Assembly (NCBI GenBank): GCA_903910555.1
Contig: CAIVZZ010000002.1
Coordinates: 1-64,000 of the forward strand
Direction: 5' to 3'
Origin: an uncultured Gemmatimonadota bacterium
Lineage (GTDB): Bacteria > Gemmatimonadota > Gemmatimonadetes > Gemmatimonadales > Gemmatimonadaceae
Length of the DNA: 64,000 bases
Shown piece after piece: positions 3,465-17,669 of the stretch (its first letter is position 1; every line of letters begins with the position of its first letter). Made by a program: the position numbers and the translations under genes. Under the pieces are notes generated by a model. That model had not been told where the DNA came from. It did no database searches and saw only the letters and a list, made by a program, of their open reading frames with translations.

Positions 3465-3601
3465 ACGGCAGACAGCGGTAGGCAGACGGCAGCCGGGAAA
3501 AAAGAAGACGGCGGACGACAGCACTGCGCTGTTGTCCGCCGCCTTCTTTTCTGCCGTCCGTAGTCCCAGCCGCCGTCCGCTGTCCGCCGCCTGCCGTCCT
3601 A
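3463..3601. repeat. Nested word-palindrome between convergent genes
   Basis: Flanks built from repeated GACGGCAGAC-like words (about 3463-3493) are an imperfect inverted copy of the GCCGTCCGCTGTCCGCC-like words at about 3568-3598. Between them sits the perfect terminator stem. The same architecture recurs at 36.9 and 44.6 kb with unrelated words. Confidence 0.6.
3498..3550. terminator. Bidirectional rho-independent terminator
   Basis: A stem of more than 20 bp (GAAGACGGCGGACGACAGC pairing with GCTGTTGTCCGCCGCCTTC) encloses the loop ACTGC. An A run precedes it and a T run follows it, so it can terminate in both directions. It serves the receptor on the plus strand and the lipid-transport operon on the minus strand. 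Confidence 0.8.
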
Positions 3602-4480
3602 AAAGATCGACAGCTTGATGTACTTCCGCGGATTCTTCTTGAAATCCGCCGCCAACGAATCAATCCGGGTCACCAGCCCCCTCACGTCGTTGTACAGCCC
3701 GGGATCGTTCATCAGCATCCCCAGCGATCCTTTGCCGTCCGTCGCCTTGTCGATCGTCGCATTCAGCTTTGCCGACGTCGTCTTAAGATCTTCAGCGAGC
3801 GAATTGATATTCGCTGCCGCCAGCTTGAACGAGCGAAGCGTCGAATCGATCGTCACTGAGTCGACTGCCGTGGCCGCTTTCCGCAATGCCATCTGCGTCT
3901 TCACCAGCTCGGCGTTCTGAATCTCGGCAACGCGCGAGATCTCCGTGAACATCGCACCGGCCTTCTTCACCGTCTCGCGCAGATCGCCCAGACCGTTGGT
4001 TTCCACGAATTCTTTCCGCAGCGTATTCGTGAGCACCGAAATATTCGCCGCGATCGTATCGACGCGCGCGAGCACATCGCCGATCGACGGTGTCGCATGT
4101 CCCGAAAGCAGCGTGTCACCGGCCGCATACGTGAGCAGATTCGGCTTGTCCGGATGCAGCGCCACGAGCTGATCACCGAAAAATCCATTTGGCTCGATCG
4201 TCGCCGTCGTGCCGCGCGGAATCTTGTATTCCTTGCGCACCCGCAGCTGAACGATCAGCAAACCGTCCGGCCGGATCTCGACGCCGTTCACGAACCCGAC
4301 GTTCACACCAGACAGCAACACCGGCTGCCCCTGCTTCAGGCCGGCGCCCCAGGTGAACTTCGCAAAAAGTTTATAGCCCGGCTGCAGACCACCGCGCGCG
4401 AGATAGAGCGATCCCACGACCGCGAGGATCAGCGCGGCCGTCGCCGTGATTCCCACGAGGACTTCGTTGGTGCGCTTCAT
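3599..4480 (-). CDS. mlaD: MlaD-like MCE-domain lipid-binding protein
   Basis: This 293-residue protein has one N-terminal transmembrane helix (about residues 9-28) and an MCE domain at about 36-112 with the hallmark stretch LLSGVNVGFVNGVEI. A long helical C-terminal region (about 150-290) follows. MlaD proteins form periplasmic hexameric rings that pass phospholipids to or from an MlaE permease. The C-terminal part is longer than in E. coli MlaD and resembles Mce-type helical needles. The start ATG overlaps the mlaE stop by 4 bases, which indicates translational coupling. No mlaF ATPase, mlaC or mlaB gene is present in the cluster. Confidence 0.85.
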   Translation of the reverse strand: MKRTNEVLVGITATAALILAVVGSLYLARGGLQPGYKLFAKFTWGAGLKQGQPVLLSGVNVGFVNGVEIRPDGLLIVQLRVRKEYKIPRGTTATIEPNGFFGDQLVALHPDKPNLLTYAAGDTLLSGHATPSIGDVLARVDTIAANISVLTNTLRKEFVETNGLGDLRETVKKAGAMFTEISRVAEIQNAELVKTQMALRKAATAVDSVTIDSTLRSFKLAAANINSLAEDLKTTSAKLNATIDKATDGKGSLGMLMNDPGLYNDVRGLVTRIDSLAADFKKNPRKYIKLSIF

Positions 4481-5319
4481 CCTTGCAAATATGGTGCGAG
4501 AAGTAGGGCTGTGAGTGCGTCGAGCACCAGAATCCAGATCGACGAAACAACAACCGCCTTTGCCGTCGCCTTGCCGACCCCCTCGGCGCCGGCATCGGTA
4601 ACGTACCCCTCATAGGTGCAGAGGTAGGCGATCGCCGCCCCGAATAATGTGCCTTTGATCAGGCTGTACGTCACCTGGAAGTTGTCGAACCCCAGGCGGA
4701 CACCCTCCATGAACTGCGAGACCTGCACGTCCGCCACGAGCACCGCCGCGAACATTCCCGCGATCACACCCGCGACATCGGCAAACACCACGAGCACCGG
4801 CAACATGAGAATCGCCGCGATGATCCGTGGTACCACGAGATACGCGACTGGGTCGTACGCCAGCGTCTCGAGCGCGTCGATCTGCTCGGTGACGCGCATC
4901 GTGCCGATCTCAGCCGTCATTTTTGCGCCAACGCGGCCGGCGAGCACCAATCCGGTGAGCAGCGGCCCCGTCTCGAGGATCACGATCTGTCGCACCGAGA
5001 GTCCGACGATCGAGAGCTGAATCCCCTGGAAAAGCTGATAGCGCACTTGCATCGAGATCACGCCACCGATGAACGCGGCAACCATGATCGCGAGCGGCAC
5101 GGAATCGACTCCGATCGCCCGCATCTGCGGAATGATCAGCGGCAGATATGTCTTGGGCTCACGCAGCGCGCGACGAATCTCGCGCAGGAACAGGATACGC
5201 CTGCCGACACCCCTGAACGTCCCGATCGTCGCCCGCGACATCCGCCGAAAAAAACGGATGCTGCCGCGCGCAACTATCGGGAAAGTCTCAGTGTGCCGGT
5301 ACGCGCTCTCGTCGCTCAA
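4477..5319 (-). CDS. mlaE: MlaE-like ABC transporter permease
   Basis: This 280-residue membrane protein belongs to the MlaE permease family. It has several hydrophobic helices from about residue 70 and the conserved segment ETGPLLTGLVLAGRVGAK followed by EIGTMRVTEQIDALE, the coupling and elbow region typical of MlaE. The chosen start is a TTG preceded by an AGGA at proper distance; an ATG 27 codons downstream is an alternative. It lies 28 bases after lptG and overlaps mlaD. It should work with MlaD and an ATPase encoded elsewhere in retrograde or anterograde phospholipid transport. Confidence 0.87.
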   Translation of the reverse strand: MSDESAYRHTETFPIVARGSIRFFRRMSRATIGTFRGVGRRILFLREIRRALREPKTYLPLIIPQMRAIGVDSVPLAIMVAAFIGGVISMQVRYQLFQGIQLSIVGLSVRQIVILETGPLLTGLVLAGRVGAKMTAEIGTMRVTEQIDALETLAYDPVAYLVVPRIIAAILMLPVLVVFADVAGVIAGMFAAVLVADVQVSQFMEGVRLGFDNFQVTYSLIKGTLFGAAIAYLCTYEGYVTDAGAEGVGKATAKAVVVSSIWILVLDALTALLLAPYLQG

Positions 5320-5347: not shown

Positions 5348-6436
5348 CTACGTGCGGACACGGGCGAGCAACGTGCCGCCCACGGCCAGAAACAGTACGC
5401 CCGGCAGCCACGCCGCAAGCTCAGGGTTCACGAGTCCTTTGCCCCCCACGGCCTGCGTGAGCTGCACGAGCATCAGGAATATAACGGTCGTCCCGAGGCT
5501 CACGCCGACGCCGTACGCCGCGCCACCGCGCTGACTGCTCGTTGCGAGCGGTGCACCAAACAGCATGATGATCATGCAGGTCGCCGGAATCGCGATTTTC
5601 AGCATCCGCTCGACGCGCAGCTGATTCACATCGGTGCCAGATCGCTCCATCGATGCAATAAACTTTCCGAGGTCGACAAACCCCATCTCGTCGGGCGCCT
5701 TGTTGTTCGCGAGCAGGTTCTTCGGCGGCTCCGTCAGGTGCCGGTCGCGCAGCGAGTCAAAGCTCACGGTGAAGTTCGACGAATCACCCGTGAGCACGTG
5801 GATCACGCCGCTCTTGAGCATCCACCCGTTGCGCGGCGTCCAGTGTCCGCTGCGCGCGTAGATCATGTACGTCGGGTAGTCGGGCCACTGGCCTTTTCGT
5901 TCGATCTCGACGCGGTCGAGCGATCCGGTATTGGCGTCGGCCGACGCAACCTTGTACACACGCCCCTGCTCGGTCGCAAACGTAAAGTTGGATCGCGTGA
6001 CGGATTCGCCCGACCGCTTCTCGCCAAGCAGCTCATCGCGCCGGGAGTTTGCGCCCGGCATTGCCGCGCCGACTCCAAGATCGATGATCGTCGCGAGCAG
6101 CGCGCCAACTGCGATCGGTGCGATGAACCGATAGAAGCTGATTCCGCTCGCCTTCGCCGCGCTGATCTCCGAGTGGCGCGTGAAGCCGCCAATCGAGAAT
6201 ACTGTCGCGAACAGAACCGCCGCAGGAATTACCTGGAACGACGACTCAGGCAGCTGGTAGAAGTATGCCTTGACGAGGTCCATGATCGGGATGTGCCGAT
6301 ACAGATACTTCTGCAGGTTCTCTGTGATGTCGATGACGATCACGAGAATCGGAAATCCGAGCGCAGTCGCCGCCAGAATCTTCAGAAACTCGCTGAGCAC
6401 GTAGCGGTCGAGCGGGCCGAGCAGGCGAATTTTCAT
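5348..6436 (-). CDS. lptG: LptF/LptG-family permease (second copy)
   Basis: This 362-residue YjgP/YjgQ-family permease starts at an ATG overlapping the upstream lptF stop (ATGA). It begins MKIRLLGPLDRYVLSEFLK and has three N-terminal membrane helices, a periplasmic beta-jellyroll region (about residues 130-270) and three C-terminal helices. LptF and LptG are the membrane subunits of the LPS exporter with the LptB ATPase. The open frame extends far upstream of this start, but that stretch is only a shadow of lptF. Naming the second copy lptG rests on gene order, not on a diagnostic residue. Confidence 0.85.
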   Translation of the reverse strand: MKIRLLGPLDRYVLSEFLKILAATALGFPILVIVIDITENLQKYLYRHIPIMDLVKAYFYQLPESSFQVIPAAVLFATVFSIGGFTRHSEISAAKASGISFYRFIAPIAVGALLATIIDLGVGAAMPGANSRRDELLGEKRSGESVTRSNFTFATEQGRVYKVASADANTGSLDRVEIERKGQWPDYPTYMIYARSGHWTPRNGWMLKSGVIHVLTGDSSNFTVSFDSLRDRHLTEPPKNLLANNKAPDEMGFVDLGKFIASMERSGTDVNQLRVERMLKIAIPATCMIIMLFGAPLATSSQRGGAAYGVGVSLGTTVIFLMLVQLTQAVGGKGLVNPELAAWLPGVLFLAVGGTLLARVRT

Positions 6437-7920
6437 CCTGTGCTCCCGCGCCGCGTGAACCATCCGCGCACCTTCGCGAAGAACTCCGATGTTTCGCTGC
6501 CGCGCGACGTCGATCCTTCCCGGCCGAGACGCGACGTGAGCGCCACGCCGACCGAGAGCAGGAGCAGGTTCGAGGACCACATCGCCCAGAACGGAGGCAC
6601 GATATTGGCGCGGGCGAGCGCCTCGCCCGCGTTGAGCCCCACATAATAGAACGAGAACACGCCGAGGCTCACGCCGATCGTAAGACCGACTCCGCCGCGC
6701 GGAAAGCGCAGCGCGATCGGCGCACCGAGCAGCGCGAAGATCACGCACGCGGCCGCTATCGCGAATTTCTTCTCTATCTCCACGCGGTCGCCGTCGATCG
6801 TGGCCTGCGCGAGCCCGATCTGCAGCTTCAACTGCTCAGCCTGCGCGGCGCGCATGTCGGGCGTCGATACCTCACGCGGCATCGGCGGCACTTTGTAGCC
6901 GGGCGCCGGCGTTTGCGGCGGTGCCTGGCCGGGTGCCTGGCCCGGTGCCTGCGGCAACTCTGCCGCGCTGGCCGTCTTGATGATCTTCAGGCCGGACAGG
7001 CGGTGACAGTAGAGACCACCGATTCCGTTGGAGGTGTTGCCGAGCTTCACCGACTTCGCAACGCCGCTGTCGATCGCTTTCATCGAGCGGAACACGCTGT
7101 CGCGCGCGCGGACGAGGCGCACCACGCGACGCTGGAGTTCGCACACCGTCATCTCGCGGTCGCTCTTCTCGCCGCCGATCGTGTCGATCTCCAGCGTGTT
7201 GGCGATGTTGCGCACTTTTACGAAATCTGTCTGAAAGAACACCCGCCGGAGCTGCGTGGCGTTTTCCGGCTCAAGCACCATCCACGATCCATGAAAGAGC
7301 GTCAGCAGCAGGTCGCGCTGATTGGCCGCGAGCTCGAGCAGGCCGCTGTCCGCGTGGATGGTGTAGCGCGTCTGCGGGTTGCTCAGATCGTAGATCGAGA
7401 CCTCGCGCATGCGATTGTTTTCAAACAATCGCGCGGTGCGCAGAAAGAGGCGACCGGGCGAGATCTCGTTGATGACCTGTTCCTTCAGCGCAAACGTCGG
7501 TTTCTTGCGCGCGATATCGTTCGAGAGCGTGGTCAGGCGGTGATTCGCAGCCGGGAGAACCTGGTCGTTAAACCAGACCATGAAGAAGGTGAAACCCACG
7601 GCCGAGATGATCACCGGGATCATCAGTCTCTGGATCGCGATCCCGCTGGCCTTGAAGGCCGTGATCTCGTTTTCGGACGCCATCCGGCTGAAGGCATGAA
7701 GCGTCGAGACCAGCACCGCCATCGGCAGCGTAACGGCGACCGTGAACGGGACGGACAGGAGCAGGAATTCGGCGATAACCGGCCACGCCAGCCCCTTGCC
7801 CACGAGCTGTCCGAAATTCTTCGCGACGTAGTTGAGCAGGAGCAGCGATGTCAGCGCGGAGAGCGCAAACATCAGCGGCGCGAAGTGCTCCTTGAGTATG
7901 TACTTCGTGAGGATCTTCAA
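6433..7920 (-). CDS. lptF: LptF/LptG-family permease (first copy, with Pro/Gln-rich insert)
   Basis: This 495-residue YjgP/YjgQ-family protein is longer than the usual 360 residues or so. It has the N-terminal signature LTKYILKEHFAPLMFALSAL, a periplasmic domain and C-terminal helices around ALLGAPIALRFPRGGVGLTI. The extra length includes a Pro/Gln/Ala-rich stretch with APGQ repeats and a basic segment ahead of the last helices, plus a long Ser/Arg tail. It is first in the operon lptF-lptG-mlaE-mlaD, which groups LPS export with phospholipid transport. The start ATG is at 7920, divergent from sprA. Confidence 0.85.
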   Translation of the reverse strand: MKILTKYILKEHFAPLMFALSALTSLLLLNYVAKNFGQLVGKGLAWPVIAEFLLLSVPFTVAVTLPMAVLVSTLHAFSRMASENEITAFKASGIAIQRLMIPVIISAVGFTFFMVWFNDQVLPAANHRLTTLSNDIARKKPTFALKEQVINEISPGRLFLRTARLFENNRMREVSIYDLSNPQTRYTIHADSGLLELAANQRDLLLTLFHGSWMVLEPENATQLRRVFFQTDFVKVRNIANTLEIDTIGGEKSDREMTVCELQRRVVRLVRARDSVFRSMKAIDSGVAKSVKLGNTSNGIGGLYCHRLSGLKIIKTASAAELPQAPGQAPGQAPPQTPAPGYKVPPMPREVSTPDMRAAQAEQLKLQIGLAQATIDGDRVEIEKKFAIAAACVIFALLGAPIALRFPRGGVGLTIGVSLGVFSFYYVGLNAGEALARANIVPPFWAMWSSNLLLLSVGVALTSRLGREGSTSRGSETSEFFAKVRGWFTRRGSTG

Positions 7921-8028
7921 CGGTTATGCATGCGCTTTTCGGGCGGTTTTTGGGCGGTTAATCCAGGCTCGGCCAAGGGCACGCGTCCGGAATGTCCCAA
8001 TCTCAGGAAATCCGCGCGCCACATAGGG

Positions 8029-8111: not shown

Positions 8112-11100
8112 GTGCGCCCCCTGCGACTTCCCTGGCTCCCATTCGCTCTCCGTGTCGTATTTGTCGCCGCTCCCGCACTCGCTGCGGCGCAGACCGGTGC
8201 CGATACGTCGCGAGCCAAGGCTGACTCAGCCAAGACTCGCGCGGACTCTGCTAAGTCACCGGTTTCGCCGGCTGACTCGAGCCGAATCACCGATCTGTTC
8301 GGGCAGCGGACCGACCTCGGCTTCCAGTTCAACGGCCGGTTCGAGTCGAAGCTCGAGCAGACCAAGAACCAGACGTGCAACTCGAGTCAGTTTTTTTCGG
8401 TTGCGGCGCAGTGCAACGGGTCGTTCCAGCCCGTCTTCGATTTTCAATTCGGCGTAAAGACCGGTGGCACCTTTGCCGACCGCGTCCACGTCAACGTGGA
8501 CTATAACTCCACGCGCGAGTTCGACGCGTCGAATAACATCTCGCTGTACTACGAAGGAAAGAAAGGCGATTGGCTGCAGCGGGTGGACGTGGGGAATGTC
8601 ACCTTCGAAGTTCCGGCGTCGCGCTACATCACGACCGGCATTCCGCAGGGGAACTACGGCATTCAGGCGTTGGCGAAATTCGGCGATCTGCGCGTGCGCG
8701 CGATCGCGGCGCAGCAGAAGGGAAATGTCGTCGCGAACAAGGTTTTCACTGTGGGCGGGGGGTCGCAAACGCAGGCATTGGTCACGCGCGACATCGACGA
8801 CTATCAGGTTGAGGCGCGGCGTTTTTTCTTCACGGTTGATCCGCGTCTGCTGGGCGGATATCCGAACATCGATATTCTGAACGCGGTGCAGATGCGGCAG
8901 CTCGCGAGCGCGCTGCCGGACTCCATCCGCCCGGTGCATATCGTGTTGTACCGGCTGTTGATCGGCGGTCAGCCACCCAATCCGAACGGCCCGCAGTTCC
9001 AGCTGATTGGTGATCCCAACTCGCGCCGCGGTCAGGTCTACGAGGTGCTGCGCGAGAACATCGACTACATCGTCGATCCGTCGCAGCTCTGGGTGAAGCT
9101 CACGCAGCCGCTGAATGTGAACAACGAGCGGCTTGTGGTTGCCTACACAGTGCGAAGTGTCGGCGCTGAGACGACCAATGCAAACACCGGCGGCACGCCG
9201 GACATCACCTACATCGCGTCGCGCCCGCAGTACGCGAATTTGATTTGGGATCCGACCGTAAATCCCGGCGACCCCGCGTCGTTTCGCGAAATGCGCAACG
9301 TGTATCGGATCGGCGGATCGGACGTGCAGCGGAACACGATCGGTATTTCGATCGCGACCGGCACGACCTTCGATCAACAGAAGCCGCTCGCGGGAATCGC
9401 GCCGTCGTTTCTTCAGCTGTTCGGCGTTTCACAGTCGGGGAATCCGGGCGCGTTCGATGCGGACAATAGACTCTGGCCGCGCGCCGGCGATCCAGGCTAC
9501 AACATCGCGGCGGGTGCGGGCAGCATCGGTGGACTGGCTGGACTCGGTGGGATCGGAGGAGCCGCCGGCGCAGCCACCGGCTCTCCCACCGGCGCGACCG
9601 ATCTCTTTCTCGTCTTTCCCTCGCTCACGCCATTCGCGCGCGCAGGACTCGCGCAGCCAGCCGGGAATCCCGCCAACGACGCGATTTACTCAACTCCGGG
9701 AATCTATCTCTACTCCCCGCAGCATCCGTCTCCGGTCTTTCGACTCCACCTGACCTACGAATCCGACGGCAGCGGCGACGGCACAGGCATCACGCTCGGA
9801 TCCAATCAGCTGCGGCCGCTGTCGGAGCGCCTGACGCTCGACGACGGCACCGTGCTCAAGCGTGATCTCGATTACACGATGGATTACGATCTCGGGCGCG
9901 TCACCTTTCTTCACCCGGACACGCTCTTCGCGCGGCCGCGGAATGTGACCGTGCGGTACGAGGAGAATCCGCTCTTCGTCACGGCGCCGACTTCCATTTT
10001 CGGACTCGCCGCATCGCTGCCGCTCAAGTACGGCGAGCTCAACTTCGTCGCGCTTGGTCAGGCGCAGAGCACGTCGCTCACGCGTCCGCAGCTCGGTTAC
10101 GAAGCGCAGTCGTCGCTGATCACGGGCGTCACCGGAAATTTCGCGTTCAACGCGCCATGGTTTGCTCATCTCGTGGATAAACTGCCGGGCGCAAATCCGA
10201 ACGCTCCCGCCAGACTGCACTTGCTCACCGAGATCGCGATGAGCCGGCCGCAGATCGGTGGATCGTCGACAGCCTACGTAGAAACGTTCGAAGGGAATGG
10301 CGGAACCATCGTCCCGCTCAGCGATCCGAGCTGGTATCTCTCAAGTCAGCCTGCGAACGGTACAAAGCTCAGCGGGCTGATTGGCGGAACGACGACGCTC
10401 GATCTCACGCGCGCCGCAACGCTCGCGTGGCAGAACAACGGACTCAATCCGGCAGGACAGTCCGTGACCTTTACGTTGCAGCAAATAGACCCGCTCACCG
10501 ACATCGTCGGCGCGGGCCTCCAGCAGCCGGAGCCGGTGCTCTGGCTGACGATGTATCCGCTCGGTGTCGGCGGCGCATTGAATGATCAGACGAAAAAATA
10601 TCAGTGGCTCACCCCGGGCGGTCCGTCTGGCCGGCGGTGGCGCTCGATCCGTCAGGCGCTCAGCACGACTGGTACCGATCTCTCGCACGCACAGAACATC
10701 GAGATGTGGGCGCTCGTCGACACGGCAACCGCGCGGCGCCAGCACAACCCGACGATTGTCATTGACGTCGGCGATGTCTCGGAAAACACTGTGGCCGTGG
10801 GGCCGACGAATCTTCTCGTGCAGCGCACCGCGGCCGGCGTCGACTCGGCGTACAGCGGCCGTGCAGTGTATGGGCGCGATACGCTTCAGTCCGAGCGCGA
10901 TCCCTTCACGCGCGCGTTCGATCAGACCAAGAACGACATCGGCCTGCCCGGTGACGTGATTCCGAACCTCGCGTTCGCGTCAACTGATTCGTCGGTCAAT
11001 ATCAAGAACTACAAGATGTGCTCGCGCGGCAACACGCAGCTGCGCCAGATCGGCGATACAAAAACGAATTGCACGGTGAACAACGGCCGCCTCGACGAAT

Positions 11101-14100
11101 GGGATCTCGATGGCGACGGCGTGCTCAACTTCAACTCGCTGCAGCGCGAACAGGAGCGTCTCTTCCGCTACGCTGTCGACCTGAGCAATCCAAAATCATA
11201 TGTGCGCATCGGTGGCTGCGCCGCGTCACCGACCGACTCGCTCGGCGCCGCCGGCGAGCGCAAATGCTGGGTGCTCGTGCGCATTCCGTTCGGCGCGCCG
11301 CTTGATACCATCAGCGGCGGGCCAAACATTCAGCGCGTTCATACCATCCGTCTCACGATGGTGTCCGGCGTTGCCGCCGCGGACGACGAGTTCACGCAGG
11401 TTCCGATCGCGCGGCTCTCGTTCACAGGTGCGAGCTGGCTCAAGCGTTCGCAGCAGTCGCTCGTCGGCGTTGCGGGCGAACGGACTTCGGTTGGCCTGGT
11501 CGCCGCTGGAACGATCGGCACGGCGGATCAGGATTCCACGAGCGGGCTCGTCTATCAGTCGCCGCCAGGTGTGGTCGACCAGGCGGACCAGAAGCTGAGC
11601 GGCCTCGAAAATCAGCGCATTGTGATCAACGAACAGTCGATGCGCCTGACGACGACTTCACTCGCGAAGTACGAGCGCGCCGAGGCGTATTACCGCTTTC
11701 CGGAAGGCGCGAAGAATTTTATGCAGTACAAACAGCTGCGCGTTTGGGCGCGCGGCCGCGGAAATGGCTGGGGCCAGACGGGTGACCTCCAGTTCTACGT
11801 GAAGATCGGCAACGACGATAACAATTTCTATTTGTATCGCACGCCCGTGAACTCGGGGCAGGGGCAGGCCGCGTGGCTGCCGGAAGTGATCGTCGACTTC
11901 ACGCAGCTCAACGCGCTCCGTCTCAAGCTTGAAAACGCGTACCTGCAAAACAGCAAAGACACGCTGTCGTGTACGGCCGCCGATTCCGCATTGATTGCGC
12001 AGAGCATTCTTCCCGCCGGCCAGATCTCGCGCCGGTACGCGGCGTGCGGAAATGGCTACATGGTGTACACGGTTAATCCTGGAGTGAGCGCGCCGAATCT
12101 TCGCGCGGTGCAGGAGCTCGCTGTTGGTATCGTACGCGTCGACAGCTCCGGTATTGGCGCGACGCGCATCATGCCTGGCGACACGCTCGAGGTCTGGGTC
12201 GACGACATCACGCTCGCGAACAGCGTGAACACACCGGGTTATGCGGGCCAAATTGGCGTGGATCTTGAATCGGATTTGGGAGCGATTCACGCGAACTTCT
12301 CGCATCGCGATCCAAACTTCCGCCAGCTCGGCGAGGCGGCCTCGAATGTCGCGGATGACGACGTCGAGCTCAGCACGACGCTGCGGCTCGAGCGGCTCTT
12401 CGGCCGCGGCTTTGGCTATGCGATGCCGGTGACGATCACGCATTCGACAATCGTCACGACGCCGGAATATTTGTCAAACTCTGACATACTCGCGAACGGT
12501 ATTGCGGGGCTGCGTACGCCCAAGAGCGACGCAACCAGCGTGTCGCTCGGCGTGCGTCGCAGCGTGCCGCTGCAGGAAGGCTGGGCGGCGCCAATCATAA
12601 ACAACCTTACGCTGACCACGTCGATTATCACGGCAAGCTCGCGCGACGAATTCTCAAGCGCGACACATTCGATGTTCAACGCCGGCATCGGCTACGCGAT
12701 CGGCGGTGGCCCGCGCACGACAGGAATGCCCGCGTGGTGGGAACGAATGTTCGACGGCCTGCCGCAGTGGCTCGCGACGTCGGAATTCGCGCAGTCGATG
12801 AAATACGCGCAGGTGCACACGGACCCGGTCGCATTCCGCTTCAGCAGCAGCTACACCAAGGGCGACGACGAGCGGTCGAGTTTCTCGAAGCCGGCGGTTT
12901 CCAGCACGGATACGGCATCGGTGGTGTCATCGCTGACGAATTACTGGAACAACGCGACGGCTGTTGAGCTCAGGCCGTTCGACGCGCTCAGCGCGCGCTG
13001 GGAGTTTTCATCGCTGCTCGATCTTCGAAACTACGGCGATACGTCGCTCGCGGGGATCGCCGCTACGAGCGAACGCAGTTCATTCTTCGGATTTGCAAAC
13101 GGACTCGAACGTCAGCGCAGCATCAGTACGTCAATCGATTTTCTGCCGAAACTGAAAGGCTGGCTGCGGCCGCGCTTCAACTTCTCGACCGGATACGCGA
13201 TGCTCCGCGATCCGAACACGACGCAAGTGTTGCATGTTGGCGATAGCAGCTCGGCGATTCGTCTGCCGCAGCGGCTCAATGCGTTGCAGTCGCTGAACAC
13301 GGGCGCGTCACTCGATCTCGTTCGTGTCATCAGCGCGTGGACCACGGATTCGGTGGCGCTGCGCAAACTGAACAACACTTTGCTCCCGGTCGATTTCAAT
13401 TATTCGCGCACGCTCAATTCGGCGTTCGACGGTACGCCGTACGCGCCGAGCCTCGGGTATCAGCTCGGCTTCTCCGGAGTGGCCGGGTACCTGCTCGAGA
13501 ACGGCCTGCTCGCGAGCAGCGCGGGGAGCAACGCAGCGGCAACCATCACCACCGGGCTCAAGTTGCCCTACGGCATGTCGCTGACCGCGCGGACGCAGCG
13601 GCTGGCCACGCGGAATTGGAACAGCGGCATCGACACGAGTCAGACGATCATCGACGGTGAGCAGCTCACGCTCCCCGATCTCACATTGCGCGCGACGTAC
13701 CATCCGAAAGCGCTGCAGCAGTATATCACGAGCTTCACCGCCAATGTCCGGTACGTGCTGACTCACCAGCGGTCGAGTGTGCCGAGTATTTCGACTCTGC
13801 TGCCGGCAGATGTTCGCACGAGCCGGGTGGTGAGTTATCCGGTGGGGGCGAGCGTGGTATGGAACGACGTCGGCAACCTCACGACCGGTTTTAGCCTGGG
13901 ATCGTCATATCGTGTGGATTCAGTGCCGGGGAGCATCACGGACTCTCATGCCCGCGATATCAGCGCCGACGCCTCGCGTTCGTTCAAGCTTCCAGTTGAG
14001 TGGAAGATGAAGAGCGCGTTGCGCGCGCGGATCGGCTTCCAGCAGACCACGTCAGTCAGTGATATATCAAACGGGCTCGTGGCCGGATTTCAGAGCCGGC

Positions 14101-14282
14101 TGGCAGACAATGGGCGACAGGCGATTACGTTGAATGCGGATACTGATATCGCGGACAACCTCACGTTCTCGCTGCAGAGTGCGCGGATCGTGACGTTCGA
14201 CAATAATTTGAATCGTAGATTGACGCAGGTCGTGCTGTCTGCGGTTTTGCAGATCGCGTTCTTCGGCGGAGAAATGAGATGA
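8112..14282 (+). CDS. sprA: SprA-like giant outer-membrane protein (type IX translocon homologue)
   Basis: This protein of about 2056 residues (2096 if the in-frame ATG at 7992 is used) resembles SprA, the very large outer-membrane barrel of the type IX secretion translocon in Bacteroidota. SprA-like landmarks are the repeated YTMDYDLGRVTFL segment near residue 588, the NEQSM motif near 1173 followed by YKQLRVWARG and WLPEVIVDF, and an N-terminal region with RRFFFTVDP. The GTG at 8112 gives a compact signal peptide ending PALAAA before Gln, and a good promoter lies just before it. The stop overlaps the start of a glutaminyl cyclase gene. No other type IX genes are in the window. Export function here is inferred from homology only. 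Confidence 0.75.
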   Translation: MRPLRLPWLPFALRVVFVAAPALAAAQTGADTSRAKADSAKTRADSAKSPVSPADSSRITDLFGQRTDLGFQFNGRFESKLEQTKNQTCNSSQFFSVAAQCNGSFQPVFDFQFGVKTGGTFADRVHVNVDYNSTREFDASNNISLYYEGKKGDWLQRVDVGNVTFEVPASRYITTGIPQGNYGIQALAKFGDLRVRAIAAQQKGNVVANKVFTVGGGSQTQALVTRDIDDYQVEARRFFFTVDPRLLGGYPNIDILNAVQMRQLASALPDSIRPVHIVLYRLLIGGQPPNPNGPQFQLIGDPNSRRGQVYEVLRENIDYIVDPSQLWVKLTQPLNVNNERLVVAYTVRSVGAETTNANTGGTPDITYIASRPQYANLIWDPTVNPGDPASFREMRNVYRIGGSDVQRNTIGISIATGTTFDQQKPLAGIAPSFLQLFGVSQSGNPGAFDADNRLWPRAGDPGYNIAAGAGSIGGLAGLGGIGGAAGAATGSPTGATDLFLVFPSLTPFARAGLAQPAGNPANDAIYSTPGIYLYSPQHPSPVFRLHLTYESDGSGDGTGITLGSNQLRPLSERLTLDDGTVLKRDLDYTMDYDLGRVTFLHPDTLFARPRNVTVRYEENPLFVTAPTSIFGLAASLPLKYGELNFVALGQAQSTSLTRPQLGYEAQSSLITGVTGNFAFNAPWFAHLVDKLPGANPNAPARLHLLTEIAMSRPQIGGSSTAYVETFEGNGGTIVPLSDPSWYLSSQPANGTKLSGLIGGTTTLDLTRAATLAWQNNGLNPAGQSVTFTLQQIDPLTDIVGAGLQQPEPVLWLTMYPLGVGGALNDQTKKYQWLTPGGPSGRRWRSIRQALSTTGTDLSHAQNIEMWALVDTATARRQHNPTIVIDVGDVSENTVAVGPTNLLVQRTAAGVDSAYSGRAVYGRDTLQSERDPFTRAFDQTKNDIGLPGDVIPNLAFASTDSSVNIKNYKMCSRGNTQLRQIGDTKTNCTVNNGRLDEWDLDGDGVLNFNSLQREQERLFRYAVDLSNPKSYVRIGGCAASPTDSLGAAGERKCWVLVRIPFGAPLDTISGGPNIQRVHTIRLTMVSGVAAADDEFTQVPIARLSFTGASWLKRSQQSLVGVAGERTSVGLVAAGTIGTADQDSTSGLVYQSPPGVVDQADQKLSGLENQRIVINEQSMRLTTTSLAKYERAEAYYRFPEGAKNFMQYKQLRVWARGRGNGWGQTGDLQFYVKIGNDDNNFYLYRTPVNSGQGQAAWLPEVIVDFTQLNALRLKLENAYLQNSKDTLSCTAADSALIAQSILPAGQISRRYAACGNGYMVYTVNPGVSAPNLRAVQELAVGIVRVDSSGIGATRIMPGDTLEVWVDDITLANSVNTPGYAGQIGVDLESDLGAIHANFSHRDPNFRQLGEAASNVADDDVELSTTLRLERLFGRGFGYAMPVTITHSTIVTTPEYLSNSDILANGIAGLRTPKSDATSVSLGVRRSVPLQEGWAAPIINNLTLTTSIITASSRDEFSSATHSMFNAGIGYAIGGGPRTTGMPAWWERMFDGLPQWLATSEFAQSMKYAQVHTDPVAFRFSSSYTKGDDERSSFSKPAVSSTDTASVVSSLTNYWNNATAVELRPFDALSARWEFSSLLDLRNYGDTSLAGIAATSERSSFFGFANGLERQRSISTSIDFLPKLKGWLRPRFNFSTGYAMLRDPNTTQVLHVGDSSSAIRLPQRLNALQSLNTGASLDLVRVISAWTTDSVALRKLNNTLLPVDFNYSRTLNSAFDGTPYAPSLGYQLGFSGVAGYLLENGLLASSAGSNAAATITTGLKLPYGMSLTARTQRLATRNWNSGIDTSQTIIDGEQLTLPDLTLRATYHPKALQQYITSFTANVRYVLTHQRSSVPSISTLLPADVRTSRVVSYPVGASVVWNDVGNLTTGFSLGSSYRVDSVPGSITDSHARDISADASRSFKLPVEWKMKSALRARIGFQQTTSVSDISNGLVAGFQSRLADNGRQAITLNADTDIADNLTFSLQSARIVTFDNNLNRRLTQVVLSAVLQIAFFGGEMR

Positions 14283-15244
14283 GCGGATTGAAGATCACCG
14301 GAATCGTTGGTCTCACGATTGCTGCCGTGACTGCGTGTGGCGCAACGGGCGACAAACCGGCGTTCATCGCGCGCACGTCAAATGAGTTCAACGCCGATTC
14401 GGCGATGAGCTACATCAAGCAGCAGGTCGCGTTTGGGCCGCGCATTCCCGGAACTGCGGCCGCGACGAAAACCGGCGATTGGATCGTCGCACACCTCAAG
14501 CAGACCGCCGATACCGTGCTCGAGCAGCGCTGGACGCACACGCTCGCGAACGGAAAAACGCTTCCGATGCGGAATATCTTTGCGCGCTTCAAGCCGGGTG
14601 CGAAGGACCGCGTGTTGTATATCACGCACTGGGACACGCGGCCGGTGGCCGATTCTGATCCGGATCCGGCAAATCGCGCGAAGACATTCGACGGCGCGAA
14701 CGATGGTGCGAGCGGCGTCGCGCTGCAGCTCGCGGTGGCCGACGCGCTGAAGAAAGTGCCGTCGACGTATGGCGTCGACCTGTTGTTCGTGGATGGCGAG
14801 GACTGGGGAACGTTCACGCCTGATGTAGACGTCCTGATCGGCTCGACCTACTTCGCGCAGCATCTGCCGAATCCGGGATACGCGCCGCTGTTCGGCGTGT
14901 TGTGGGATATGATCGGCGACGCCGACCTCAACATCTATCAGGAAATCAATTCCGCACAGGCGGCGCCCGAAGTCGTGCAGAAGGTATGGGGCACCGCCAA
15001 GGATCTTGGCTATGAGAAGTATTTCATTCCCGAGGCGAAGGAGCCGATCACGGACGACCATCTGCCGCTGATCAAAGCCGGCTTACGCGTGATCGATGTG
15101 CTTGACATTGACTACGGTCCGCGCGATGCGAACGGTGTCGTGACGACGAATTATCATCATGCGGTCGCCGATAATATCGAGCATGTCTCGGTGAAATCGA
15201 TGAAGATCGTCGGCGATGTCGCGATTGCGTTATTGCGGCCGTAA
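14279..15244 (+). CDS. Lipoprotein glutaminyl-peptide cyclotransferase, M28 fold
   Basis: This 321-residue protein has a lipobox ending AVTAC (Cys20) and an M28-type zinc fold. Segments FGPRIPGTAA, GDWIVAHLK, HWDTRPVADSDPDPA and FDGANDGASGV match the Bacteroidota glutaminyl cyclase pattern better than ordinary aminopeptidases. Candidate zinc ligands are His117, Asp142 and Glu174. Such enzymes turn N-terminal glutamine of exported proteins into pyroglutamate in the periplasm. The ATG overlaps the sprA stop (ATGA), so the two are co-translated. Many exported proteins in this window start with Gln after signal cleavage, which fits the role. An aminopeptidase function cannot be excluded from sequence alone. 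Confidence 0.82.
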   Translation: MSGLKITGIVGLTIAAVTACGATGDKPAFIARTSNEFNADSAMSYIKQQVAFGPRIPGTAAATKTGDWIVAHLKQTADTVLEQRWTHTLANGKTLPMRNIFARFKPGAKDRVLYITHWDTRPVADSDPDPANRAKTFDGANDGASGVALQLAVADALKKVPSTYGVDLLFVDGEDWGTFTPDVDVLIGSTYFAQHLPNPGYAPLFGVLWDMIGDADLNIYQEINSAQAAPEVVQKVWGTAKDLGYEKYFIPEAKEPITDDHLPLIKAGLRVIDVLDIDYGPRDANGVVTTNYHHAVADNIEHVSVKSMKIVGDVAIALLRP

Positions 15245-15249
15245 GAGCA

Positions 15250-15391
15250 GTTGTCTCACAACGGATAACTATCAACTGAGCACTCACGACTGTGGTCCTA
15301 CGACTGAGTACTGAGAACAGCTGTTGCGGGTCCACGGCTCTCGGACCAAAGTGGTGAATAGTGAGTTGATAGTTGTTAGTTGTGAGACAAC
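15250..15391. repeat. Long imperfect palindrome, copy A
   Basis: The ends GTTGTCTCACAAC (15250-15262) and GTTGTGAGACAAC (15379-15391) are exact inverted repeats, and the arms continue with CTATCAACT and AGTTGATAG. It shares the 17-mer GTACTGAGAACAGCTGT (15308-15324) with copy B. Confidence 0.7.
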
Positions 15392-15400
15392 AACTAAAAA

Positions 15401-15435
15401 CAAAACCCGCGGGCCGATTGGCCTCGCGGGTTTTG
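15401..15435 (-). terminator. Strong terminator reading leftward
   Basis: CAAAACCCGCGGGCC pairs with GGCCTCGCGGGTTTTG around a GATT loop. On the minus strand the stem is followed by a T-rich run, so it would terminate a minus-strand transcript through the tRNA-like sequence. Confidence 0.7.
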
Positions 15436-15523
15436 TCGTCAGGTTTCCCTGACTTTTGCGCACCTGGTAAGTGTACCAAACGATAGTAGCGCTCTTACTG
15501 GGTGTCAATGAACTGTGAGGGCG

Positions 15524-15600
15524 TGCCCAGAGCGGGATTCGAACCCGCACGTGCCGCCTTCCTCACGGTGCGCAGCGCTGTCGCGCTGCCCTGTTTGACG
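15524..15600 (-). tRNA. tRNA-like remnant (intact T arm and 3' acceptor strand only)
   Basis: On the minus strand a perfect T arm, GCGGG-TTCGAAT-CCCGC (15548 to 15532), is followed by the acceptor strand TCTGGGC and discriminator A. I cannot find a matching 5' acceptor GCCCAGA upstream, nor a clean 7-base anticodon loop. The upstream sequence has Leu-tRNA-like words such as TGGCGGA. A decayed class II tRNA, or a 3' end left by past integration, fits best. A terminator lies just downstream. Confidence 0.35.
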
Positions 15601-15635
15601 ACAACGTTCGTCCGCCAACGACCCGACTGCATCGC

Positions 15636-15775
15636 AGTTCTCTCACAACTGACAGCTATCGACTCACAACTCACCACTTTGGTCTGACGACTGCGTACTG
15701 AGAACAGCTGTCGTGGGTTCTGAGTGCTCAGGCCAAAGTGGTGAGTGCTGAGTTGATACCTGTCCGTGAAGAGAA
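15636..15775. repeat. Long imperfect palindrome, copy B
   Basis: CCACTTTGG (15674-15682) and CCAAAGTGG (15733-15741) are inverted, and the arms carry ACTCACAACT-type words as in copy A. It shares the 17-mer GTACTGAGAACAGCTGT at 15695-15711 with copy A, in the same orientation, 387 bases away. Confidence 0.65.
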
Positions 15776-16337: not shown

Positions 16338-16987
16338 CCAAGTCATTCCTCGATCCGCACCACCCGCGCCTGTTGTGTGAATGCTGCGAGCTGCCGACGC
16401 GCATTGTGCCGTCGCTCCCGCCGGCGATCGCCGATTACAAGAGCACGTCGACGAGCTGCCCGCTCTGCGAATGGGAAAACGCTCCCGTCGACAAACACGG
16501 ACAAACCATCGCGGATTCCAATGAGCAGGCGACCGAGCGAAATGGCGGCCACACGCTCGCCGAGTCGCAATCGAACTTCCGGCGTTTCCTCTCGATGTAC
16601 GATCCGGCGCAGCTCGAGCCGTGGATGCCCGAGCCGCCGACTGCGGAAGAGCTGCGATGGAAAGAGGAACTCGTGCGATTGTACAAGCGAATCCTCGATC
16701 CATATGCGGTCGATGGCCGCGAATCGCTCAAACAGATTCTGGCGCTTGAGCGCGTGCTCGCAGATGCAGAGCAGGCTCGCGTCTCCGACGAAGAAGTCCC
16801 GATCGAGACGTCCGATGATGAGGAGACTGCAGAGCCGACCGCGCCGCAGTATTGGCGCAAAGGCGATGCCGGAATCCGCCACTTTACAAACACCGGCGGC
16901 GAGGGCGAGGTGTGGCCTCCGATCCGCAAACAAGGTGACGAACCCGGCGCAGCGCCGACGCAAAAACAAATCAATGACCACAACTAG
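16334..16987 (+). CDS. Cys-rich CPCC-like zinc-binding protein
   Basis: This 217-residue cytoplasmic protein has an N-terminal Cys cluster (Cys15, Cys17, Cys18) and a second pair Cys42 and Cys45 in SCPLCEWEN. The layout resembles the cysteine-rich CPCC family (CPCC... ICPxCxWED). The C-terminal half is acidic and charged, with no recognised domain. It overlaps the DinB gene upstream and the cyclophilin gene downstream (ATG at 16974), so the three are translated together. Its function is unknown. Confidence 0.6.
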   Translation: MTKSFLDPHHPRLLCECCELPTRIVPSLPPAIADYKSTSTSCPLCEWENAPVDKHGQTIADSNEQATERNGGHTLAESQSNFRRFLSMYDPAQLEPWMPEPPTAEELRWKEELVRLYKRILDPYAVDGRESLKQILALERVLADAEQARVSDEEVPIETSDDEETAEPTAPQYWRKGDAGIRHFTNTGGEGEVWPPIRKQGDEPGAAPTQKQINDHN

Positions 16988-17669
16988 TCTTCGCGGTGCG
17001 TGGGCCGTCGCGGTGGCGCTCGCAATCGTCGCATGCGCGCACCGTACAGCTCCCGCGCCGACTCCGTTGCAGCGCAGCGCTCTGCTGCTCGACCCAAACA
17101 ACCCCGAGTGGACCCGCCCCGCGCCGGCCGTTTCACATCTCCGCTTTGAAACGACAAAAGGCGTATTCGTACTCGAGCTCAATCGCGCCTGGGGACCGCT
17201 CGGCGCCGACCGCGCATACAATCTGGCGCGACTCGGCTACTACAACGACACGCGAATTCATCGCGTGAATCCGCATTACTTGGCGCAGTGGGGGCTTCAC
17301 GGCGATTCCGCCGTCAACGCCGCGTGGAAGGGACACTATCTCCGCGACGATCCGCCGCGCTCACACAACGTGCGCGGCACGTTTGCATTTTCGTACGAAG
17401 GTTCCGGTCACGAGAACACACGCAACACGCAGATCTACGTGAACCTCGCCGACAACAATAAGAACGATGTCGAGCCGTTCACTGTGCTCGGCACCGTGTC
17501 GCAGGGAATGGCGGTGCTCGACAGCCTTTACTCTGGCTACGGCGAGAATTCAGGGAGCGGCGTGCGGCAGGGAAAGCAGGGCCCGCTCGCGAACGGCGGC
17601 AACGCATTCATGGATCGCATGTATCCGAAACTCGATCGGATCATCCGCGTGACGGTGTCCGTCCCCTAG
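16974..17669 (+). CDS. Lipoprotein peptidyl-prolyl isomerase, cyclophilin type
   Basis: This 231-residue protein has a lipobox ending LAIVAC (residue 20 or so) and a cyclophilin domain beginning LRFETTKGVFVLELNRAW. Cyclophilin features include YYNDTRIHRVNP and GTFAFSYEGSG followed by NTQIYVNL. It likely assists folding of exported or outer-membrane proteins in the periplasm. The ATG lies within the end of the preceding gene. The active-site Arg in RIHRV is kept; some other catalytic positions differ from classical cyclophilins. Confidence 0.82.
   Translation: MTTTSLRGAWAVAVALAIVACAHRTAPAPTPLQRSALLLDPNNPEWTRPAPAVSHLRFETTKGVFVLELNRAWGPLGADRAYNLARLGYYNDTRIHRVNPHYLAQWGLHGDSAVNAAWKGHYLRDDPPRSHNVRGTFAFSYEGSGHENTRNTQIYVNLADNNKNDVEPFTVLGTVSQGMAVLDSLYSGYGENSGSGVRQGKQGPLANGGNAFMDRMYPKLDRIIRVTVSVP

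Follow-up and report, generated by a model that had tools for sequence, protein, structure and literature searches.

A conserved sprA-glutaminyl cyclase gene pair in Gemmatimonadota and its apparently reduced or divergent type IX secretion system

Descriptions of type IX secretion name the GldLM motor as its drive. The Q-rule, by which glutamine follows the site of signal peptide cleavage, is described as a feature of the Bacteroidetes. In P. gingivalis, the gene encoding glutaminyl cyclase (QC) heads an unrelated three-gene operon. Two kinds of this enzyme are known, the type II (bacteroidal, M28-fold) QC and the type I QC (plant-type, beta-propeller, Glu_cyclase_2), which share the expected chemistry but are unrelated in fold. 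An earlier survey reported type IX secretion systems (T9SS) in Bacteroidetes only (PMC4793230); their possible occurrence in Gemmatimonadetes has since been mentioned (PMC11285876). High Q-values have been described as typical of Bacteroidetes and not of related phyla, with values scattered along a continuum elsewhere (PMC5837995). In the window analysed here, a stretch of 64,000 nucleotides from an uncultured Gemmatimonadota bacterium, the QC gene follows sprA. In the largely non-subscription literature that we searched, we found no description of a SprA-QC operon and none of a QC in Gemmatimonas.

The sprA gene (8112-14282, forward strand) starts with GTG and encodes a homologue of the type IX outer-membrane translocon SprA/Sov of 2056 amino acids; the mechanically derived open reading frame that contains it opens upstream, at an ATG at 7992. 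An earlier note on this DNA had called the gene SprA-like, and this is borne out by a score of 666.7 bits against the SprA/Sov equivalog TIGR04189 (cut-off 200). Likewise, a phmmer search matched the product to F. johnsoniae SprA (6h3i) with an E-value of 1e-27. The structure prediction that the note had proposed was performed with AF2 for residues 545-1725 only, based on an alignment of 46 Gemmatimonadota sequences, and gave a mean pLDDT of 86.5. Four SprA entries, 8gl6 and 6h3i among them, were its sole structural matches with E <0.001 in 350,542 solved chains (E 6e-55 to 1.5e-36). The TM-scores were moderate (0.51-0.56, by query length) because the model covers just part of the large barrel. 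The identity of the protein as SprA is secure by sequence and fold. A rule-based site prediction places a type I signal peptide at 8112-8189, with cleavage at AAA/Q and the codon of the glutamine at 8190-8192. Therefore, SprA itself is a predicted QC substrate. In a loose scan, such an A/Q site was present in 34 of 48 SprA homologues, 10 of the 48 being without a recognisable signal peptide.

The adjoining gene (14279-15244, forward strand) encodes a type II QC of 321 amino acids with the lipobox VTAC. Its product belongs to Pfam family Peptidase_M28, and the solved structures nearest to it by sequence are those of P. gingivalis QC and related QCs (E about 1e-61), in agreement with its earlier designation as a lipoprotein M28 glutaminyl cyclase. 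The predicted structure resembles P. gingivalis QC (6qql) with TM-scores of 0.82/0.91 (E 1.9e-31). With PgQC and TfQC the protein shares the fold, the zinc ligands including the bacteroidal aspartate, and the lipoprotein anchor (PMC5837995, PMC10653852). It differs from PgQC in its host phylum, Gemmatimonadota, and in three pocket aromatics of PgQC (W193, F294 and W298), which are replaced; Trp298, which adjoins the histidine ligand, is present in QC homologues from families f2, f3 and f8. This partial loss of the pocket aromatics, together with the M28 fold, would also be compatible with an aminopeptidase. We regard that identity as very improbable, since the zinc ligands D142, D175 and H294 and the catalytic E174 are unchanged throughout nine homologues, and an aspartate at the place of D175 (PgD183 in the P. 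gingivalis enzyme) is specific for bacteroidal QCs (PMC7948796). Moreover, an aminopeptidase matches the protein much more weakly by sequence (E 1e-8), and every top structural match is a QC or a protein since re-annotated as one. The identification as a QC is thus secure by sequence, fold and metal ligands, and the predicted protein is likely to be enzymatically active.

The stop of sprA and the start of the QC gene share an ATGA at 14279-14282, exactly the four-base overlap claimed earlier. A ribosome-binding-like element read from the sequence, GGCGGAGA, lies at 14266-14273 within the 3' end of sprA, with its GGCGGAG stretch just 5' of the overlap. The locus had been described as "fused in operon"; the operon stands, but there is no fusion, as these are two separate genes. 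A strong hairpin followed by a T-rich stretch (15400-15436, forward strand) probably ends the operon, the region 15395-15450 folding with -30.2 kcal/mol (z -5.2). A match to the Rfam leucine leader over the terminator region was dropped, since its score lay below the gathering threshold. On the reverse strand, divergent from sprA, are an lptF-like gene (6433-7920; PF03739 238 bits, TIGR04407 167 bits) and an lptG-like gene (5348-6748; PF03739 221.5 bits, TIGR04408 170 bits), both encoding LPS-export permeases and both below the cut-off of the respective TIGR model. They are joined in a conserved upstream block by genes for an mlaE-like permease (4477-5319, reverse strand; PF02405 222 bits) and an mlaD-like protein (3599-4480, reverse strand; PF02470 52.5 bits). 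The lptG-lptF block is common to the homologous loci compared, and the place of lptF beside sprA and/or QC is conserved. This setting, in an operon with QC and beside lptFG/mlaED, distinguishes sprA here from its counterparts in F. johnsoniae and P. gingivalis.

Of the 121 phylum genomes examined, 88 encode SprA, with open, full-length reading frames in nearly all of them. The locus collection was scanned with the QC alignment, the SprA alignment being too divergent for this use. Of 80 named QC loci, 35 have SprA immediately 5' of QC in the same orientation; 34 of these are labelled Gemmatimonadota and one Bacteroidetes. A QC start overlapping by four nucleotides is available in 20 of these 35 pairs, and one that overlaps by a single nucleotide or abuts in eight more. 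QC directly follows SprA in families f1, f2, f3 and f8. The linkage is secure, is not due to chance and spans at least four families; the pairing is real and old. The single locus with a Bacteroidetes label (L219, HyVt-473) also has SprA directly before QC, and the pair may thus extend beyond Gemmatimonadota.

We subsequently examined the residue that follows signal peptide cleavage. Glutamine occupied the predicted +1 position in 41 of 140 signal peptides pooled from five genomes, compared to 0 of 28 in E. coli (p = 1.7e-4; Fisher values overstate independence because the genomes are related, and shared ancestry weakens the p-values but not the direction). The counts were 11/30 for the genome of the window (own genome), 6/23 and 8/30 for two SprA-less genomes, and 7/28 and 9/29 for two with type I QC, while glutamine makes up about 3% at other residues. 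All five genomes sampled show the enrichment, with or without SprA. This recalls the Q-rule of the Bacteroidetes, but a crude predictor such as ours does not show glutamine after the majority of cleavage sites. The crude Q-value of 25-37% comes from a home-made, noisy predictor, compared to a mean of 71% obtained with SignalP for the Bacteroidetes (PMC5837995, PMC10653852). The spacing in our predictor was calibrated against mature N-termini of E. coli proteins, of which it placed 15 of 18 correctly. Earlier predictors were discarded because they mis-set cleavage sites or admitted cytosolic and membrane proteins, as was a looser [AGS]Q count, which was also positive in E. coli owing to glutamine at -2. 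In the own genome, the A/Q site is found on SprA, on both PorV/PorQ-family proteins and on an M14 carboxypeptidase that is a candidate cargo.

From the overlap of the two genes, the earlier note had inferred a coupling, in this lineage, between SprA-mediated export and the cyclisation of N-termini. QC would then specifically modify the cargo of SprA, or SprA itself, and both steps would form one functional unit. Such a dedicated coupling would account for the conserved four-nucleotide overlap, for the linkage in at least four families and for the A/Q site on most SprA homologues. The pattern of gene loss argues against it. Type II QC is present in 26 of 33 SprA-bearing genomes, but also in 16 of the 17 without SprA. 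In a genome of the same genus (G056), and likewise in two further loci (L190 and L220), QC stands beside lptF while SprA is missing from its place. Conversely, SprA is kept without type II QC in 7 of the 33 genomes, mostly together with the unrelated type I enzyme. Type I QC occurs in 6 of the 8 genomes lacking type II, compared to 10 of 42 that have it (p = 0.009, weakened by shared ancestry; the eight are the seven SprA-bearing genomes and the SprA-less G070). Five of these six genomes carry SprA (G019, G073, G079, G006 and G017), the sixth being G070. Among the Gemmatimonas-like relatives looked at, type I QCs had lipoprotein N-termini in three loci. Since either gene is lost independently and glutamine is enriched without SprA, the coupling is unsupported. 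Experimental evidence from P. gingivalis also counts against a role of cyclisation in targeting (PMC5837995). We therefore hold a dedicated coupling to be quite unlikely, and the gene losses suggest that pyroglutamate capping is independent of type IX secretion. The sprA-QC operon is probably not a dedicated export-cyclisation machine.

Which other type IX components accompany SprA? PorV, Gld and sorting-domain genes were reported missing from the window, and this held for the subset of window genes tested. In whole-genome searches, the matches to the PorV family and to sorting domains fell on contigs of the own genome other than that of the window. This genome, which is listed as 100% complete, encodes two PorV/PorQ-family proteins, with 112 and 106 bits against the family model (PorV_fam, cut-off 90); both fall well short of the 250 bits required by the PorV equivalog, unlike the PorV of the F. 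johnsoniae and P. gingivalis systems. PorV-family proteins over cut-off were found in 28 of 33 genomes with SprA and in 1 of 17 without (p = 6e-8; the genomes are related). SprA presence thus tracks the PorV family rather than QC. The only protein of the own genome with a possible type A sorting domain, of the kind seen in the two described systems, is the M14 carboxypeptidase, and its match is marginal (23.5 bits in the genome search, 19.2 for the whole protein; cut-off 23). PorU gave no match in the own genome and exceeded its cut-off solely in family f9 among the 20 Gemmatimonadota tested. There was no match to GldM in 50 Gemmatimonadota genomes, to GldL in 20 or to GldN in 16, the own genome being included in each set. 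The genome search proposed in the note therefore recovered the PorV family, by the family model and not the equivalog, but none of GldL, GldM and GldN. In a positive control (G135, Bacteroidales), GldL, GldM and GldN matches lie side by side. The Gld models were trained on Bacteroidota, and a divergent motor would escape them. All 17 other genomes reached via named loci encode SprA, with a GldM match solely in G135. GldM was likewise not recovered from a Bacteroidales draft that encodes full-length SprA, so single absences are weak evidence. A faint GldL match (18.1 bits) was seen in a Balneolales genome. The Glassbacteria (f9) are far richer than the family of the window: each of the four genomes tested (G001, G003, G007 and G009) has PorU above its cut-off, 12-25 PorV-family matches and 25-33 sorting domains; profile searches for GldL, GldM and GldN found none of them there.

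In several relatives, sorting-domain genes adjoin PorV-family genes. In one locus (L060 5192-10346, G043), a protein of 1322 amino acids with a near-threshold sorting domain is encoded directly 5' of a PorV-family gene; this resembles a porU-porV pair, with no sortase-domain match over cut-off. In another (L056 6875-11060, contig C8 of G000), a PorV/PorQ-family gene overlaps both an upstream ORF of 708 amino acids without a Pfam match and a downstream gene for a putative aminopeptidase (PF10023).

The earlier alternative had been a system complete elsewhere or reduced. The PorV family is indeed found elsewhere in the genome, but PorU, GldL, GldM and GldN went undetected, so that the system here would, from its gene content, be reduced or divergent. 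Several interpretations have to be weighed. The type IX system could be complete if its motor and ring have diverged beyond the reach of Bacteroidota profiles. The Glassbacteria lend this some weight, as a lineage with SprA, PorU and so many PorV-family proteins and sorting domains should require energy, and so do the faint Balneolales match and the Bacteroidales genome without GldM. The uniform lack of Gld matches in the Gemmatimonadota genomes searched, given that all three genes are recovered side by side in the control, tells against it, and we consider it possible but on balance improbable. Another interpretation would start from the conserved neighbours lptF, lptG, mlaE and mlaD and from the near lack of recognisable cargo in the own genome: SprA might have been taken over for the transport of lipids or LPS, or be a relic, and not act as a secretion pore. 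The retained SprA fold, the open, full-length frames in nearly all genomes, a SprA presence that follows the PorV family and the sorting-domain genes next to PorV-family genes in several relatives speak against this interpretation, which is unlikely. We favour, with fair confidence, a type IX translocon that is reduced and may be powered in another way, its gene sharing an operon with that of a general housekeeping QC. The marginal sorting domain of the single own-genome candidate counts against this reading, cargo being poorly supported. Outside the Bacteroidota, either a divergent motor or another power source would be used.

According to this favoured reading of a reduced translocon with a housekeeping QC, exported proteins would cross the inner membrane via Sec, and signal peptidase I would bare an N-terminal glutamine. 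The periplasm-facing lipoprotein QC would then cyclise this residue to pyroglutamate. It would work generally on envelope proteins, comprising SprA, both PorV/PorQ-family proteins and one candidate cargo; judged by its cleavage site, SprA is probably capped as well. SprA would hand sorting-domain cargo to PorV-family carriers. The operon would probably serve to make a very large outer-membrane protein together with the enzyme that protects exposed N-termini. The presence of SprA and the PorV family without detectable GldLMN raises the question of what powers transport through SprA without the motor. Likewise, finding glutamine enrichment together with either of two unrelated cyclases leads one to ask if the capping of N-termini by pyroglutamate requires type IX secretion in the first place. 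As a tentative and rather doubtful generalisation, SprA outside the Bacteroidota may export with the PorV family, and with PorU in some lineages, using an energy source other than GldLMN, while pyroglutamate capping would be phylum-wide and carried out by either of two unrelated cyclases.

Downstream of the operon, a cyclophilin gene (16377-17669) was considered as a SprA-associated PPI but dropped, because its product does not match the SprA complex entries; it is also absent from the syntenic loci compared. On the reverse strand, at about 15535-15620, a tRNA-like stretch contains GGGATTCGAACCCGC, with no ARAGORN call. The gap 3' of the QC gene (15247-15774) is filled by two direct copies of 141 nucleotides that are 77% alike, each of which is also an imperfect palindrome. 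Both copies contain the 17-mer GTACTGAGAACAGCTGT, which occurs nowhere else in the window.
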